A stretch of 64,000 nucleotides of DNA, taken from positions 1 to 64,000 of the forward strand of contig NZ_JAUSBX010000110.1 in NCBI RefSeq assembly GCF_030651835.1, read 5' to 3'. The DNA is from Methylicorpusculum sp. (GTDB lineage Bacteria; Pseudomonadota; Gammaproteobacteria; Methylococcales; Methylomonadaceae). Both the position numbers and the translations under genes were made by a program. The notes beneath the pieces are model-generated. The model did no database searches and had not been told where the DNA came from. It worked only from the letters and a program-made list of their open reading frames with translations. Position 1 is the first letter of the stretch. The number at the start of each line of letters is the position of its first letter. This document shows, piece by piece, positions 11,903-48,547 of the stretch.

Positions 11903-12208
11903 TCAAACATGACTGACAGCCGACCAGCTGACAATATGGGGCAGAGTAACTTGCATGGTTAATTCGGCTATCAACTCATCCATGTGGACCGGCTCGCCGT
12001 AAAACTCCACAACCAACGGCAAATCCATCGCCAGAGTGACCAATGAGGCTGTACGCAAAACACCATCCTCACCAAATCCGGCTATGCCCTGAAAAACGGT
12101 CGCTCCTTTCGCCTTGCTATTTTCTTGAAGCATTTTCAAAATTTTGTCCAGAAGATGCTCGCCCTCGCGTAAATAGATTCGCACTACTGTGATAGTTTGA
12201 GTTGCCAT
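11903..12208 (-). CDS. DUF190 family protein
   Basis: Small cytoplasmic protein (101 residues) of the DUF190 family, with the motifs RIYLREGEH and ATVFQGIAGFG. The fold is ferredoxin-like and related to PII/CutA trimers; function is not known, but it is recurrently encoded next to crcB fluoride-channel genes. I chose the ATG at 12208, which starts the usual MATQTIT sequence and follows GGAAATTGG, over an upstream alternative at 12238. It overlaps the crcB 3' end by 25 bp, so the pair is one transcription unit. Confidence 0.85.
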   Translation of the reverse strand: MATQTITVVRIYLREGEHLLDKILKMLQENSKAKGATVFQGIAGFGEDGVLRTASLVTLAMDLPLVVEFYGEPVHMDELIAELTMQVTLPHIVSWSAVSHV

Positions 12209-12891
12209 AACCAATTTCCCATTAAAATACCCAACCACACCGCCGCCACGCCGAATAACGCATTGATAACGAACAAACTCAATAAGCCGTGAAATTCTAA
12301 GCGAGGTTCGGATAACTTAAAAACCAACAACAGGGTCGATGAAATAGTCACCACACCTAATGTAAGAATCAAAATGACCGCCCGGACTTCCAGCGTCCAA
12401 TCAAGGCGGTGATGCAGCCATTCTGCCAAGCTGGAAATTAAAAAAGCGGCAATCAATGCTAACCCCAGATCAACATAAGGCAAGCCCTGACCCACCCACG
12501 GATAAAGGGCCGTCGTAAACATCTGCCGACCCAATATCATTCCGTACCAGACTGCGACCAGACATAACAAGGTGCTAAGAAACACATTCAAGCCGGCCTT
12601 AAGCAAACTGCCGGCTTCAAACAAATTGATGGTTTCCAGCGCAAATGTTGAAAACGTCGTATAAGCCCCCAGAAAACCCACTAGAATGGCCGCACGGTAT
12701 TCCAACGCAATGGAAAAGCGCTGAAGCATAAGCACCGACAAAAAACCCATCAGAAACGAGCCGGTTACATTAACAAACAAAGTTCCGTGAGGAAAACCCC
12801 GACCCAACCAGGCATAAATCCCATTAGCGACCAGAAAGCGCATTACTGCACCGACGGAACCGCCCAAAGCAATTGCTATTAATTGATTCAT
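12184..12891 (-). CDS. crcB: Fused double-domain CrcB/Fluc fluoride channel
   Basis: Fluc proteins export fluoride as antiparallel dimers of about 125-residue, four-helix subunits. Here one 235-residue protein contains two such units. Residues 1-120 keep the family pattern: GGSVGAVMR, GTLFVNVTGSF and GAYTTFSTF. Residues 130-235 have the same four-helix plan, but the pore motifs are lost: GVVTISST stands where the TTFST signature should be and the conserved Asn is not found. This resembles the inverted two-domain arrangement of eukaryotic FEX, where one half also degenerates. No fluoride riboswitch consensus was seen upstream. Function is by family; retention of two active pores is doubtful. 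Confidence 0.85.
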   Translation of the reverse strand: MNQLIAIALGGSVGAVMRFLVANGIYAWLGRGFPHGTLFVNVTGSFLMGFLSVLMLQRFSIALEYRAAILVGFLGAYTTFSTFALETINLFEAGSLLKAGLNVFLSTLLCLVAVWYGMILGRQMFTTALYPWVGQGLPYVDLGLALIAAFLISSLAEWLHHRLDWTLEVRAVILILTLGVVTISSTLLLVFKLSEPRLEFHGLLSLFVINALFGVAAVWLGILMGNWLWQLKLSQ

Positions 12892-16456: not shown

Positions 16457-18001
16457 CTATTTTGCTCCCAGCAAAGAACGCCCAGTCATTTCAAGCGGTT
16501 GAGGCACACCCAATATTTCCAGCATGGTTGGTGCTAAATCTGATAAGCCGCCGCCTTCAACAAGAGGTTTATCGCCTAAAACATAAACCAGAGGCACCAA
16601 ATTGGTTGTATGCGCTGTATGAGGTTGTCCGGATTGTTCATCACTCATTTGCTCGATATTGCCATGATCTGCCGTCACCAGCATCTGGCCACCCGCCGAT
16701 TTCAGTGCCTCAACAATTCTCTGCAGAGATTTATCGATAGTTTCCACTGCAATAATTGCCGCATCAAGTATGCCAGTATGACCTACCATATCGCAATTTG
16801 CGTAATTGCAAATGATCACATCATATTTTTGCCCCAGTATGGCTTCCACCAATTGATCGGTCACTTCTTCCGCGCTCATTTCAGGTTGAAGATCATAAGT
16901 CCTGACTTTCGGGGAAGGCACTAATATTCTGTCTTCGCCAGGAAACGGTTCATCGGTGCCGCCATTAAGAAAAAAGGTGACATGCGCATATTTTTCAGTT
17001 TCGGCCAAGCGTAATTGAGTCAACCCTGACTTTGAAAGCGTTTCACCCAGACCGTTTTTTACTTCAAGCGAAGGATAGGCAACGGGATAATTAAATTTTT
17101 CATGGTACTCGGTTAATGTGACATAAGAGCCTTTATGCGGCAGGAAATCCCGTTCAAAACCATTGAAGTCTTCATCGGTAATCGCCTGTGAAATTTCGCG
17201 CGCTCTATCCGCACGAAAGTTCATAAAAACAATGGAGTCCTCCTGATCCAAAGGCACCCCTTGCTGATGCTGATCCACAATAACGGTAGGCAGGACGAAT
17301 TCGTCTGTTTCTCCTCGATCATAAGCAGCTTGAAGAGCCTCTTTTGCAGTAACCGCTTGATGACTCGCTTTGGCATTCACGATTAAGTCACAGGCTTCTT
17401 TGACCCGCTCCCAACGTTTATCTCTGTCCATTGCATAAAAACGGCCCACAATGGAAGCAATCCGCCCCACACCCAATTCGTTGAATTTTTCTTCAATCAG
17501 CTTAAGCGAATCCATAGCGCTTTGCGGTGGCACATCCCTGCCATCCAGAATGGCATGTAAATAAATGTTTCTGAGTCCTCGTTTTGCGGCAAGTTCAAGC
17601 ATGGCTATAATTTGCAATTCGTGACTGTGAACACCACCCGGTGACAACAAGCCCATCACATGAAGCGCTTTATTCTTGGCAATCGCCTGATCCACTGCAC
17701 CACACAAGGCCGGATTTTCAAAAAAACTACCGTCCTCTATGGCATCGTTGACTCTGGAAAGATCCTGAGGCACATACCTTCCACTACCTATATGCAGGTG
17801 ACCCACTTCTGAATTACCCATTTGATCAGCAGGCAATCCTACGACACGACCGGAACAATTGATCAAGGTCATGGGGTATTCCTCGATCAGAGAATCCCAG
17901 CAGGGAGTATTGGCCAATGCTATCGCATTGTTATCTGTTTCCTGCCTGTAACCAAATCCATCGAGGATCAATAATAAAAGCGGCTTCGGTCGAATTTTCA
18001 T
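16457..18001 (-). CDS. gpmI: 2,3-bisphosphoglycerate-independent phosphoglycerate mutase
   Basis: Glycolytic enzyme interconverting 3- and 2-phosphoglycerate using two metal ions. The 514 residues match the family length. Asp14 in LILDGFG is a metal ligand, Ser64 in MGNSEVGH is the phosphoserine nucleophile, and ADHGN in the C-terminal part supplies further ligands. It is the first gene of the gpmI-envC-ctpA unit. Confidence 0.97.
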   Translation of the reverse strand: MKIRPKPLLLLILDGFGYRQETDNNAIALANTPCWDSLIEEYPMTLINCSGRVVGLPADQMGNSEVGHLHIGSGRYVPQDLSRVNDAIEDGSFFENPALCGAVDQAIAKNKALHVMGLLSPGGVHSHELQIIAMLELAAKRGLRNIYLHAILDGRDVPPQSAMDSLKLIEEKFNELGVGRIASIVGRFYAMDRDKRWERVKEACDLIVNAKASHQAVTAKEALQAAYDRGETDEFVLPTVIVDQHQQGVPLDQEDSIVFMNFRADRAREISQAITDEDFNGFERDFLPHKGSYVTLTEYHEKFNYPVAYPSLEVKNGLGETLSKSGLTQLRLAETEKYAHVTFFLNGGTDEPFPGEDRILVPSPKVRTYDLQPEMSAEEVTDQLVEAILGQKYDVIICNYANCDMVGHTGILDAAIIAVETIDKSLQRIVEALKSAGGQMLVTADHGNIEQMSDEQSGQPHTAHTTNLVPLVYVLGDKPLVEGGGLSDLAPTMLEILGVPQPLEMTGRSLLGAK

Positions 18002-18368
18002 ATTTTTTCATCTCCGATTGATAAAACAAAAAAAGTAGGGGCGACAGAATTATGAAATCCTTTCCCAAAGCGTATATTATAAGTGTATTGCTTAAAAAGC
18101 ATTGAAATTAGTAAGTCGTTTTGTTAAATTCGCAGACCATTTGCACTCAAAGCACGTCAAATTCTGGCTCTTCGATTCCTGATTTATTCAGGATAAGTAA
18201 GAATGCAGGGAGTTTGTAATCGGTACTTAGTATTGGGCGCAGCATATTTTGTGATTCTAGCGAATTAAGCGTCCTGGCTGACATTATATTAATACACGTA
18301 ACTTGCCGCTGTGCAAAAAAATTCTGAGCCTCTTTTTTGGCAACCCTCGCAAACCCAAATCAGTTAAC
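18002..18368. other. Intergenic region between gpmI and the ArsR-type gene
   Basis: No gene is seen. The region must hold divergent promoters. A 12-bp palindrome ATTCTAGCGAAT at 18254-18265 and AT-rich GACATTATATTAATAC at 18282-18297 lie upstream of the regulator and could be operator and -10 elements. CCTGATTTATTCAGG at 18178-18192 is a small hairpin. Confidence 0.4.
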
Positions 18369-18680
18369 ATGGACAAAGACAACGAACACATTGATTACAA
18401 CGACGCAGACATCGCCAGGGCGGCCCGCTGCTTAAAAGCCATGTCGCACCCACTAAGACTTAAGATACTGTGTGTTCTAGGCAATAACGCTATCAGCGTC
18501 CAAGATATTGTTGAGCAGGTTGGCACCAGCCAAAGCAATATTTCGCAACATCTGGCCATCCTCAGAGAAAAAAACATTCTTGGCTCAAAAAAAGAAGCTA
18601 ACCGGGTTTTTTACTTTATCGATGATGAACGGATGCTCAAACTCATTAAAATGATGCGCGATGTTTTCTGTTCGCACTGA
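18369..18680 (+). CDS. ArsR-family regulator, BigR/SqrR-like
   Basis: Winged-helix repressor of 103 residues from the ATG at 18369, which precedes the conserved part; an upstream TTG at 18303 is less likely. The recognition helix is TSQSNISQHLAILRE. Cys35 (in LKILCVL) and Cys101 (in RDVFCSH) stand 66 residues apart, the same spacing and context as the two redox cysteines of the persulfide sensors SqrR and BigR; a third Cys is at 21. The metal-binding ELCVCDL motif of ArsR/SmtB sensors is absent. A rhodanese follows 38 bp downstream. The persulfide-sensing role is inferred. Confidence 0.83.
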   Translation: MDKDNEHIDYNDADIARAARCLKAMSHPLRLKILCVLGNNAISVQDIVEQVGTSQSNISQHLAILREKNILGSKKEANRVFYFIDDERMLKLIKMMRDVFCSH

Positions 18681-18718
18681 TTTTTTCACATTTTTTCTAA
18701 CTAATTTTTTGTAAATCC

Positions 18719-19159
18719 ATGGAACGTTTAATAGAGTTTGTCCTAAACCATTACTTGCTATCCCTCGCTTTGGCGGTTGTTACTTTTTTATTGATTCAAG
18801 ATCTGTTTGAAAGCTTTACCAATAATTTCAAGTCGCTATCCCCAATGCTGGCAATCGTTAAAATGAACAGCCAAGGCGCGACAATCCTGGATGTTCGAGA
18901 ACCTGCCGAATTTTCAAAAGGTCATATAGAAGATGCCATCAATATTCCAGCAGGCAAAATTGAAGAACAAATCAGTCAACTTTCAGGAAGCAAATCCTCC
19001 CCCGTCATTGTGGTTTGCCAAACCGGAACACGTTCTGTTCCCGCTTGCAGAACACTGACAAAAGCAGGCTTCACAGATATCTACACTATCACCGGCGGCA
19101 TGCAATCCTGGGAAGACAACAAACTCCCAATCAAAGCAGGCAAAAAACAAAAAGCTTAA
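18719..19159 (+). CDS. Membrane-anchored rhodanese-like protein
   Basis: Single-domain rhodanese of 146 residues. Residues 10-28 form a membrane anchor and the rhodanese domain covers about 45-140. Cys100 in the loop VVCQTGTRS is the persulfide-carrying residue; LDVREPAEFSKGHI and GGMQSW are standard family marks. It resembles YibN, which precedes grxC-secB-gpsA in enteric bacteria; here no grxC is present between it and secB. It shares the upstream ArsR-type gene as a likely regulator. Confidence 0.88.
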   Translation: MERLIEFVLNHYLLSLALAVVTFLLIQDLFESFTNNFKSLSPMLAIVKMNSQGATILDVREPAEFSKGHIEDAINIPAGKIEEQISQLSGSKSSPVIVVCQTGTRSVPACRTLTKAGFTDIYTITGGMQSWEDNKLPIKAGKKQKA

Positions 19160-19221
19160 CCCAGGACTCGCATCCCAAAACGGTCTCCCTTAATCTAACC
19201 TTACATTAATCAAATAAGATC

Positions 19222-19692
19222 ATGGCTGAAGTTAATCAAACTCCTGAAAAGCAGTTTTCCATTCAAAAAATTTACACTAAAGACATCTCTTTCGAGACGC
19301 CTAACTCCCCTAAAATCTTTACCGAAAAATGGGAGCCCAAAGTTGATTTCAATTTAGGCACAAATGTTCAACCCCTAGAAAATTCCATGTATGAAGTCAC
19401 GCTGACCGTTACTGTCACGGTAAAATGCGGCGAAATGACCGCCTATCTGGTTGAAGTATGCCAAGCAGGCATTTACTCCTTGAGCGGTTTTAGTGAAGAG
19501 GAAATGGGGCCTATGGTAGGTAGTTTTTGTCCCAACATCTTGTTTCCTTATGCACGGGAAGCCGTTTCCGATCTGGTTGCGAAAGGTGGATTTCCACAAT
19601 TGCTGCTGGCGCCTGTTAATTTTGACGCGCTTTACCATCAACATCTCCAACAATTAAAACAACAGGTACCTGGCTCCAATCAAGTTAATTGA
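19222..19692 (+). CDS. secB: Protein-export chaperone SecB
   Basis: Tetrameric cytoplasmic chaperone that keeps preproteins unfolded and passes them to SecA. The 156-residue length is typical. The segments QKIYTKDISFE, AGIYSLSGF and NILFPYAREAVSDL are characteristic. It lies 62 bp after the rhodanese and 7 bp before gpsA. secA is in the same window at 24.3-27.1 kb. Confidence 0.96.
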   Translation: MAEVNQTPEKQFSIQKIYTKDISFETPNSPKIFTEKWEPKVDFNLGTNVQPLENSMYEVTLTVTVTVKCGEMTAYLVEVCQAGIYSLSGFSEEEMGPMVGSFCPNILFPYAREAVSDLVAKGGFPQLLLAPVNFDALYHQHLQQLKQQVPGSNQVN

Positions 19693-19699
19693 TTGCTGT

Positions 19700-20695
19700 A
19701 TGAAAAAAATATGCGTGCTCGGCGCAGGCTCCTGGGGCACAGCGCTTGCTATTCAGGCAGCCAGGAACGGTTGCCAGACATTGCTATGGGGACATAACCC
19801 CGCTCATATCGCGTCAACCATTGAACAACGAACTAATGAGCGCTACCTTCCGGGCGTGACTTTGCCGGCTGCTCTGAAATTAACATCAGATCTTGAAGAG
19901 GCGGCGCAATTCTGCGATACCCTTTTAATTGCAGTTCCAAGCAGGGTGTTTAAGGATACCCTGCTGAAGCTGTCGCCATTAGTATCACCAGATATTCAAA
20001 TTGCCTGGGCAACAAAAGGCTTTAACCCTGAAGATGGATCGTTACTCCACCATTCGATTCACACTATCTTTTCTGAAGATACCGCTGTTGCTGCTCTCTC
20101 TGGCCCCACTTTTGCCCGAGAGGTAGCCGCGGACTTGCCCACAGCGATAACCATCGCGTCAAATAAAATGGCTTTTGCAGATGAACTCACCTCAATGCTG
20201 CACAGCTCCCGATTCAGAATTTACACCAGTTCGGATTTGATTGGCGTTCAAGTTGGCGGCGCAGTGAAAAATGCGCTTGCGATCGCTGCCGGTATCGCAG
20301 ATGGCTTGAACTTTGGCGCCAACACCCGGGCTGCATTGATTACCCGAGGCCTCCATGAAATAATCCGCCTGGGTTTAAAAATGGGCGGGCGTCAGGAAAC
20401 GTTTATGGGATTGGCTGGTTTAGGTGACTTGATTCTAACCTGTACCGACAATCAATCCAGAAACAGGCGATTCGGACTGGCAATAGGACAAAACAGAGAC
20501 AGAGAAGCCGCCAGACGAGAAATCAATCAGGAAATTGAAGGCGTTTCAGCCGCCAAAGAAACGTATTTGCTGGCAAAAAAATTCAACATCGACATGCCAA
20601 TTACCGAACAAATCTACAACGTGTTGTACAACGACTTATCGCCTTTAATAGCCGTTCAAAACCTGCTGGAAAGAGAGCAAAAACCCGAAAACTAG
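19700..20695 (+). CDS. gpsA: Glycerol-3-phosphate dehydrogenase [NAD(P)+]
   Basis: Makes sn-glycerol 3-phosphate for phospholipid synthesis by reducing dihydroxyacetone phosphate. The 331 residues open with the Rossmann motif GAGSWGTALA and contain LSGPTFAREVA, GGAVKNALAIAAG (catalytic Lys) and GLGDLILTCT. It ends 1 bp before the convergent trmL stop, leaving no terminator space. Confidence 0.97.
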   Translation: MKKICVLGAGSWGTALAIQAARNGCQTLLWGHNPAHIASTIEQRTNERYLPGVTLPAALKLTSDLEEAAQFCDTLLIAVPSRVFKDTLLKLSPLVSPDIQIAWATKGFNPEDGSLLHHSIHTIFSEDTAVAALSGPTFAREVAADLPTAITIASNKMAFADELTSMLHSSRFRIYTSSDLIGVQVGGAVKNALAIAAGIADGLNFGANTRAALITRGLHEIIRLGLKMGGRQETFMGLAGLGDLILTCTDNQSRNRRFGLAIGQNRDREAARREINQEIEGVSAAKETYLLAKKFNIDMPITEQIYNVLYNDLSPLIAVQNLLEREQKPEN

Positions 20696-20696
20696 C

Positions 20697-21179
20697 CTAC
20701 ACGATGGCTGGTTTTAAACTCGCCCCATCAAACCCTGTCTGTCGCCAAGCTTCATAAAGCATTATTGCGACCGTATTTGACAAGTTCATGCTCCGGCTTT
20801 CAGGCTTCATCGGCAAACACAACAAGTGATCAGCGGGCATCGCTGCTAATAAAGCATTTGGCAGGCCTCTTGTCTCGGGTCCAAACAAAAAAGCATCTCC
20901 CGCAGCAAAACCGATATCAGAGAACACTTTCTTACCTTTTGTCGTCAACGCAAAAAGCCTGTCAGGTTTATTAGCGGCTAGATAAGCATCCAACGAGTCA
21001 TGTACTTTCATGTCAACCCATTCATGATAATCCAAGCCCGCCCGTCTTAATTTTTTATCTTCAAGTTTAAATCCCAAAGGCTTGATTAAATGAAGATGCG
21101 CGCCGGCATTGGCGCAAAGCCGGATGATATTTCCGGTATTGGCTGGAATTTCAGGCTCATAGAGCACGATATCGAACAT
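20697..21179 (-). CDS. trmL: tRNA (cytidine/uridine-34 2'-O)-methyltransferase TrmL
   Basis: SPOUT-class methyltransferase that modifies the wobble base of leucine tRNAs. The 160-residue protein carries the trefoil-knot motifs [21 protein letters not shown] and [15 protein letters not shown]. Length is that of the minimal SPOUT dimer subunit. It sits convergent to gpsA, matching the secB-gpsA-trmL neighbourhood of enteric bacteria. Confidence 0.94.
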
Positions 21180-47949: not shown

Positions 47950-48202
47950 GGGTGAATTAATTTTAAATTCTTTCTTTTTCTACAATGACTTAGAGGCTGA
48001 AAAAACAGAGCAAAGCCAGCCCTGATAAATTCCGCTTAATATCATGAGGTTAATAATAGAAATTGAAGTATCGACTTAAAGGAAAAAAATTTGGATCATC
48101 AAACCTGAAATGACAGATGCTGGGTATAACAAAAAGGAAGTAAAAACGAGCCAAAAATGCATTGGCGAAATGGAGATACAGAGAAGTATTTGAAGAGTAT
48201 CA

Positions 48203-48547
48203 AGAGTCGGCCTGTAAGCCGGGTTCTGTCTGGAACAGCCATTCATCTAGGCTGCAAGTCACCCTGCAGCTCAAGCAATCTACCCGGGAACCGCGCGGGC
48301 CACGCGTATGTTCCCCTATTTGATCTTGCTCCGAGTGGGGTTTACCCTGCCACACCTGTTGCCAGTTGCGCGGTGCGCTCTTACCGCACCATTTCACCCT
48401 TACCGAATTTTCATTCGGCGGTATATTTTCTGCGGCACTTTCCGTAGGCTCACGCCTCCCAGGCGTTACCTGGCACTCCGCCCTATGGAGCCCGGACTTT
48501 CCTCCATCCCACAAAAAAGTGAGACAGCGACTGCTCAGCCAACTCTT
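48203..48547 (-). ncRNA. rnpB: RNase P RNA
   Basis: Catalytic RNA of RNase P, bacterial class A. On the minus strand the 5' part contains the conserved GAGGAAAGTCCGGGC block, and the 3' part contains GATGAATGGCTGTT and ACAGAACCCGGCTTACAGGC. The ends GAGTTGGC and GCCGACTC pair as helix P1. Its position between mraZ and rsmI is the same as in pseudomonads. Ends are estimated to within a few nt. Confidence 0.97.

Follow-up and report, generated by a model that had tools for sequence, protein, structure and literature searches.

The locus examined here raises the question of which signal is read by a small ArsR-type regulator encoded directly ahead of a rhodanese gene, secB and gpsA, and of what that regulator controls. 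The window, the whole 64,000-nt stretch analysed, comes from a Methylicorpusculum sp. contig (NZ_JAUSBX010000110.1) of a genome that its relatives mark as that of a methanotroph-like gammaproteobacterium, the closest match with a name being a Methylomicrobium sp. metagenome-assembled genome (99% identical). The regulator gene, arsR (18369–18680, plus strand), encodes 103 residues when its start is taken as the ATG at 18369; a TTG at 18303 in the same open reading frame would add 22 residues. It is followed on the same strand by the gene for a 146-residue, YibN-like, membrane-anchored rhodanese (18719–19159), by secB, encoding the export chaperone (19222–19692; PF02556, 195.5 bits, and the NCBIfam SecB model), and by gpsA, encoding glycerol-3-phosphate dehydrogenase (19700–20695; PF07479/PF01210), across gaps of 38, 62 and 7 bp, respectively. 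Consensus scans of the plus strand from 18000 to 20800 returned no terminator-like site. On the far side of a 367-bp promoter region lies the divergently oriented phosphoglycerate mutase gene gpmI/gpmM (16457–18001, minus strand), an open reading frame that is also the neighbour in relatives and that is named after gpmM, which occupies the corresponding position in E. coli. Elsewhere the window holds a class A RNase P RNA (48199–48546, minus strand, 351.9 bits) and, at 11903–12891, what we take to be a CrcB-like membrane protein of 235 residues, apparently two halves joined in a single chain, with a small DUF190-like protein after it, both named by eye.

The regulator is a member of the ArsR/SmtB family: it passes the Pfam HTH_5 model (42.5 bits, cut-off 22), and its predicted structure has the ArsR fold (pLDDT 87.9). 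Its residues Cys35 (codon 18471–18473) and Cys101 (codon 18669–18671) had been likened in an initial annotation to the two sensing cysteines of SqrR, and the likeness holds. Spaced 66 residues apart, they coincide in the alignment with the sensing cysteines of SqrR, BigR, HlyU and YgaV, matching the α2 and α5 sensor positions in all five reference sulfur-sensor rows; in the model, Cys35 lies within the helix formed by residues 28–37 and Cys101 one residue past the helix formed by residues 87–100. The α3 metal site is absent, in line with the earlier claim that the ArsR metal site is lacking. The window protein reads NAISVQDIVEQV there, with neither the CxC of As/Cd/Pb-type sensors nor any cysteine, and has SVQDIV at the α3 positions, compared with GELCVCDL or GEICVCDL in three CVC-containing paralogues from the family.

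Conservation of the cysteine pair was followed in two overlapping sets, namely 111 loci with an arsR match among 119 examined (the window itself and near-duplicates included) and 68 class-level stretches from 66 genomes across Gammaproteobacteria, mostly the best ArsR matches rather than a random draw. Cys35 is present in 111/111 and 68/68 loci, and Cys101 in 111/111 and 67/68. Together the sets contain 143 distinct core sequences, all with Cys35 and, by alignment, all but one with Cys101. A recount by pattern flagged three cores without a terminal FC; in two the pattern had stopped early, and the alignment confirms one true exception. This sole exception among the orthologues examined (L196, G424:C23) has valine at position 101; its genome carries a second arsR match. 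A third cysteine, Cys21 (codon 18429–18431), which the initial annotation had not mentioned, is cysteine in 61 and serine in 47 of the 111 loci, and the position is serine in 66/68 loci at class level; it therefore falls outside the conserved pair.

Among proteins of solved structure, sequence comparison ranks HlyU (62.7 bits), YgaV (60.8 bits), BigR (58 bits) and SqrR (51.6 bits) first, followed by NolR, PagR and the metal sensors, with SmtB (36.7 bits) and CzrA (34.2 bits) behind. A Foldseek search with the ArsR model is led by HlyU, NolR, SqrR, YgaV and BigR, and the VIA Z-scores (HlyU 16.2, CzrA 15.9, SqrR 15.2) do not separate metal sensors from sulfur sensors. That CzrA is structurally as close as SqrR could speak for a sensor of metals or metalloids, as could membership of the ArsR/SmtB family and the top NCBIfam match, the broad HTH_metalloreg subfamily model, which is passed with 82.2 bits against a cut-off of 55. 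The phylogeny points the other way. A maximum-likelihood tree of 40 rows unites 25 orthologues in a single clade (98/97), which the five known sulfur-sensor rows join at 93/87, a support that is good yet below the program's starred level, with the reference rows on long branches; the metal sensors fall outside, CzrA being the sole reference for sensors with an α5 metal site (SmtB, CzrA, NmtR). When the three cysteine columns are masked and CmtR is omitted, the split between classes is recovered at 93/86 and the orthologue clade at 94/85. A metal-sensing role is also at odds with the missing α3 CxC, with neighbouring open reading frames among which no metal transporter or ars gene was read, and with another arsR in the same genome that stands next to arsC- and arsD-like genes (named by eye); we regard it as very improbable.

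The initial annotation had proposed a possible persulfide-responsive ArsR–rhodanese unit, a proposal to be abandoned if the regulator grouped with metal sensors or if orthologues lacked the two cysteines. It is supported on both counts, the regulator standing apart from the metal sensors sampled and with SqrR, BigR, HlyU and YgaV, and the pair being conserved. The regulator is of the known sulfur-sensor kind but is not a BigR, because its score against the NCBIfam BigR model (NF040642), which all 49 of the 49 proteins scanned match at E ≤ 0.001, is 69.6 bits, far under the cut-off of 155. It may represent a distinct orthologous subfamily.

PMC10509353 describes ArsR proteins of the SqrR/BigR/HlyU/YgaV type as a cluster of persulfide sensors located near rhodaneses. 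SqrR (Rhodobacter capsulatus) and BigR (Xylella, Acinetobacter) share with the window protein the ArsR fold, the aligned α2/α5 cysteine pair, the lack of an α3 CxC and the side of the tree on which they fall, but they are 27–35% identical to it in structural alignment and belong to a separate clade. HlyU (Vibrio), a hemolysin-gene activator in the same source, is the best match in both sequence and structure and has the same cysteine pair, but lies on a separate branch. In E. coli, YgaV–YgaP is likewise a two-gene unit of a dithiol ArsR protein and a membrane rhodanese, and YgaV is described in PMC9774250 as repressing its own operon, with sulfide derepressing it. YgaV is 40% identical to the window regulator, groups with HlyU outside the orthologue clade and, as numbered in that paper, has its cysteines at positions 31 and 98, one residue further apart than the window pair; its partner differs too, the window rhodanese being of YibN type rather than YgaP type and encoded at a different locus.

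The regulator is widely distributed. A relative was found in 196 of 369 Gammaproteobacteria genomes, representing 143 of 272 genera (E ≤ 1e-15), a count in which the weakest matches may belong to other subfamilies, and the window's own family has the regulator in 135 of 201 genomes (E ≤ 1e-6; a few matches are partial or broken). A rhodanese gene lies directly downstream on the same strand, within 7–882 bp, in 67 of the 68 class-level stretches, and the one stretch without it runs into the end of its contig; of the 80 nearest loci, 78 have a rhodanese match. The median identity to the window proteins across 48 more distant loci, from which L042, L048, L080 and L010–L038 are left out as Methylococcales, is 71% for ArsR, 62% for the protease gene CTP, 57% for SecB and GpmI, 53% for GpsA and 38% for the rhodanese, and the gap between ArsR and the rhodanese recurs at class level (71% versus 36%); because the loci were chosen as the best matches of ArsR, which favours ArsR, the size of this gap is not leaned upon. 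A search of open full texts, with subscription journals and preprints outside its scope, found no mention of ArsR together with YibN, or of ArsR with SecB, a rhodanese and glutaredoxin. New here are the class-wide pairing of arsR with yibN, a candidate operator outside Methylococcales, and the finding that several genera of the window's own family have lost arsR.

A membrane-anchored rhodanese had been read directly after arsR, and this is confirmed by a PF00581 match (73.6 bits) and a single N-terminal hydrophobic segment, whose best 19-residue mean hydropathy is 2.14, starting from residue 8. The similarity of the protein to E. coli YibN spans the full length (31%, E 3e-25), that to YgaP the domain only (26%), and the gene is named yibN for that reason. 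It has the features of YibN, namely an N-terminal membrane helix (by hydropathy only), a rhodanese domain and a place before secB–gpsA. The rhodanese loop, CQTGTR, contains Cys100 (codon 19016–19018), which is kept in 133/133 loci with arsR and in 18/18 without it (counts that include near-duplicates, with 14 distinct sequences among the 18), whereas other loop residues vary. The idea that the loop cysteine tracks arsR was accordingly rejected, as the cysteine is also kept where arsR is missing. E. coli YibN has DGSGMQ at this loop, with aspartate for the first loop cysteine, and all 151 rhodanese loci examined here have cysteine. PMC12282094 places the E. coli YibN cysteine on the other side of the loop; it also reports YibN as a partner of YidC and wider cells on yibN deletion.

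The E. coli K-12 locus, gpmM / yibN-grxC-secB-gpsA-cysE, has the same order and the same divergent gpmM/gpmI neighbour as the window, but it is without arsR and the window locus is without grxC, and the rhodanese loops differ. The initial annotation had noted that the usual grxC is missing. The gene is indeed absent from the window locus and is usual at class level (40/68 loci); among the 80 nearest loci, though, only 9 have it, and none of L010–L046 do. An argument from its absence is further weakened by a glutaredoxin encoded elsewhere in the window's genome (G000:C17), which shares 53% identity with E. coli GrxC.

The geometry of the cysteine pair would also allow a plain disulfide, and the SqrR disulfide structure (6o8o) is among the structure matches. 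The regulator might thus be a dithiol switch for another signal, forming a Cys35–Cys101 disulfide under oxidants or during hypoxia and re-oxygenation, with no specific role for sulfane sulfur, much as Hyphomicrobium SoxR forms a disulfide under oxidation according to PMC10451225. Set against this are HlyU, a member of the cluster that, according to PMC10509353, is reactive toward persulfides but not toward H2O2 or GSSG; the H2O2-sensing cysteines of RexT, which the same source places in α3, where the window protein has none; and the rhodanese gene that comes next at nearly every class-level locus. We judge a switch for another signal unlikely.

By analogy with SqrR, BigR, HlyU and YgaV, ArsR is probably a dithiol repressor of its own operon belonging to the sulfane-sulfur-sensing class. 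Reduced ArsR would repress arsR-yibN-secB-gpsA; as persulfides rise, sulfur atoms would bridge Cys35 in α2 and Cys101 at the end of α5, and the bridged protein would leave the DNA, so that YibN, a membrane rhodanese whose loop Cys100 could carry sulfane sulfur, would be made. Homology suggests persulfide as the signal; that the protein represses, that transcription continues through secB and gpsA, and that YibN has the part assigned to it are likewise inferred. Open full texts yielded no chemistry or DNA-binding data on members of the orthologue clade.

Local autorepression predicts an operator near arsR, and none was located in the window by searches for ATTC-N4-GAAT, ATTC-N8-GAAT and ATTAT-N3-ATAAT. 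The palindrome ATTCTAGCGAAT (18254–18265), singled out in the initial annotation, proved to be unremarkable: by chance alone its ATTC-N4-GAAT pattern should appear 2.0 times per window, and it appears once; of the 141 regions upstream of arsR, 2 contain it, where shuffling gives a mean of 0.8. Among same-genus relatives its arms are kept in L010 and L092, which are identical here, and broken in L091. On its chance-level frequency and its break in L091, it was rejected as the ArsR operator. The SqrR-type site, ATTC-N8-GAAT with its 8-bp gap (given in PMC9774250), has three matches in the window, none of them in the arsR promoter, and is found in 0/141 arsR upstream regions. Run on Methylococcales promoters alone, motif discovery turned up no palindrome whose presence follows that of arsR.

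A conserved Methylococcales promoter element, ATTATATTAATACACGTA (18283–18300), is the left half of a dyad, ATTATANTAATACACGTTG ... TTGTGTATAAATAATTC, whose right half is degenerate in the window and which is confined to Methylococcales. The left half occurs in 69 of the 201 family genomes, as one copy in 68 and as two in one. The dyad looked strong as an ArsR operator and was set aside for its independence of arsR: across the same 201 genomes, both are found in 48, arsR only in 87, the element only in 21 and neither in 45, the arsR side including a few partial or broken matches. Sixteen of the 21 element-only places were inspected; in 14 the element precedes yibN-secB-gpsA with arsR missing, and in the other two, from another genus, the left half lies close to gpmI with no yibN. 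Because losing arsR does not entail losing the element, an operator role is not evident; the element is probably a core promoter or the site of another regulator, more likely promoter DNA shared with gpmI, part of it probably being the gpmI promoter.

At least four genera (g4, g12, g15 and g24) include members that lack arsR and keep yibN-secB-gpsA. With arsR lost in several genera and both these genes and the element retained, the operon there is independent of arsR. Apparent decaying remnants of arsR, recognized by eye, precede an intact yibN-secB-gpsA in L159, L157 and L160 (G167, G149 and G031, respectively), and L159 retains a residual MQDVFC-like end of the gene, also by eye. At another locus, in a genome without an arsR match (G191), a HEARO RNA (Rfam RF02033, 95.2 bits; L158:3896–4124, G191:C18) sits between the promoter element and yibN, in the place that arsR takes in relatives.

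Outside Methylococcales, arsR promoters carry the palindrome ATTATTGTATAAT, which contains a perfect −10 hexamer. The pattern ATTAT-N3-ATAAT is found in 34 of the 141 arsR upstream regions (shuffled mean 0.35), including 14 of the 28 regions L180–L207, selected solely on ArsR score (shuffled mean 0.06); other subsets have it in 6/41 (other de-replicated regions) and 14/39 (L238–L277). It is absent from all 33 de-replicated Methylococcales-type upstream regions, and the window has no such site, its best score against the position weight matrix (4.3) being at the shuffled level. A search of the 369 class genomes for the exact 13-mer gives 63 matches, spread over 54 genomes, with at least 34 of the matches within 450 bp upstream of arsR and a 35th (L230) also at an arsR locus; the remaining 28 do not exceed a reversed-pattern control, with 44 matches in the same 369 genomes (summed by hand). 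Of 12 genomes selected by locus, eight have a single copy, each at arsR, and four have none. A palindrome that marks arsR promoters and otherwise does not rise above background fits local autorepression, and since it lies over the −10 region, a plain conserved promoter could look similar.

This distribution also bears on whether the regulator might, like HlyU or YgaV, govern a distributed regulon, with the yibN locus merely its seat. Such a regulon would explain why ArsR is better conserved than its neighbours, as the best conserved of the proteins compared at loci that were themselves chosen by ArsR, and would agree with the lack of an operator in the window; a ygaV mutant, according to PMC9774250, has 98 genes up and 44 down. 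The palindrome outside Methylococcales, counted as exact sites only, lies at arsR and is otherwise at background, and a distributed regulon seems improbable to us.

If ArsR is indeed the proposed repressor, a very widely held Gammaproteobacteria ArsR protein would be a sulfur sensor controlling YibN and perhaps SecB and GpsA, and YibN, a protein of unknown function in E. coli, would gain a signal and a testable chemistry. In methanotrophs and sulfur oxidisers, sulfide stress would be tied to protein export and to the supply of membrane lipid. Our more tentative suggestion, which we hold to be possible rather than probable, is that a Gammaproteobacteria-wide ArsR–YibN module couples intracellular sulfane sulfur directly to an operon for envelope biogenesis, through YibN as a partner of YidC, SecB in export and GpsA in making a lipid precursor. 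In much of the class, YibN would then act as an enzyme that handles persulfides, and E. coli YibN, with no adjacent regulator and no normal loop cysteine, would be a derived exception.
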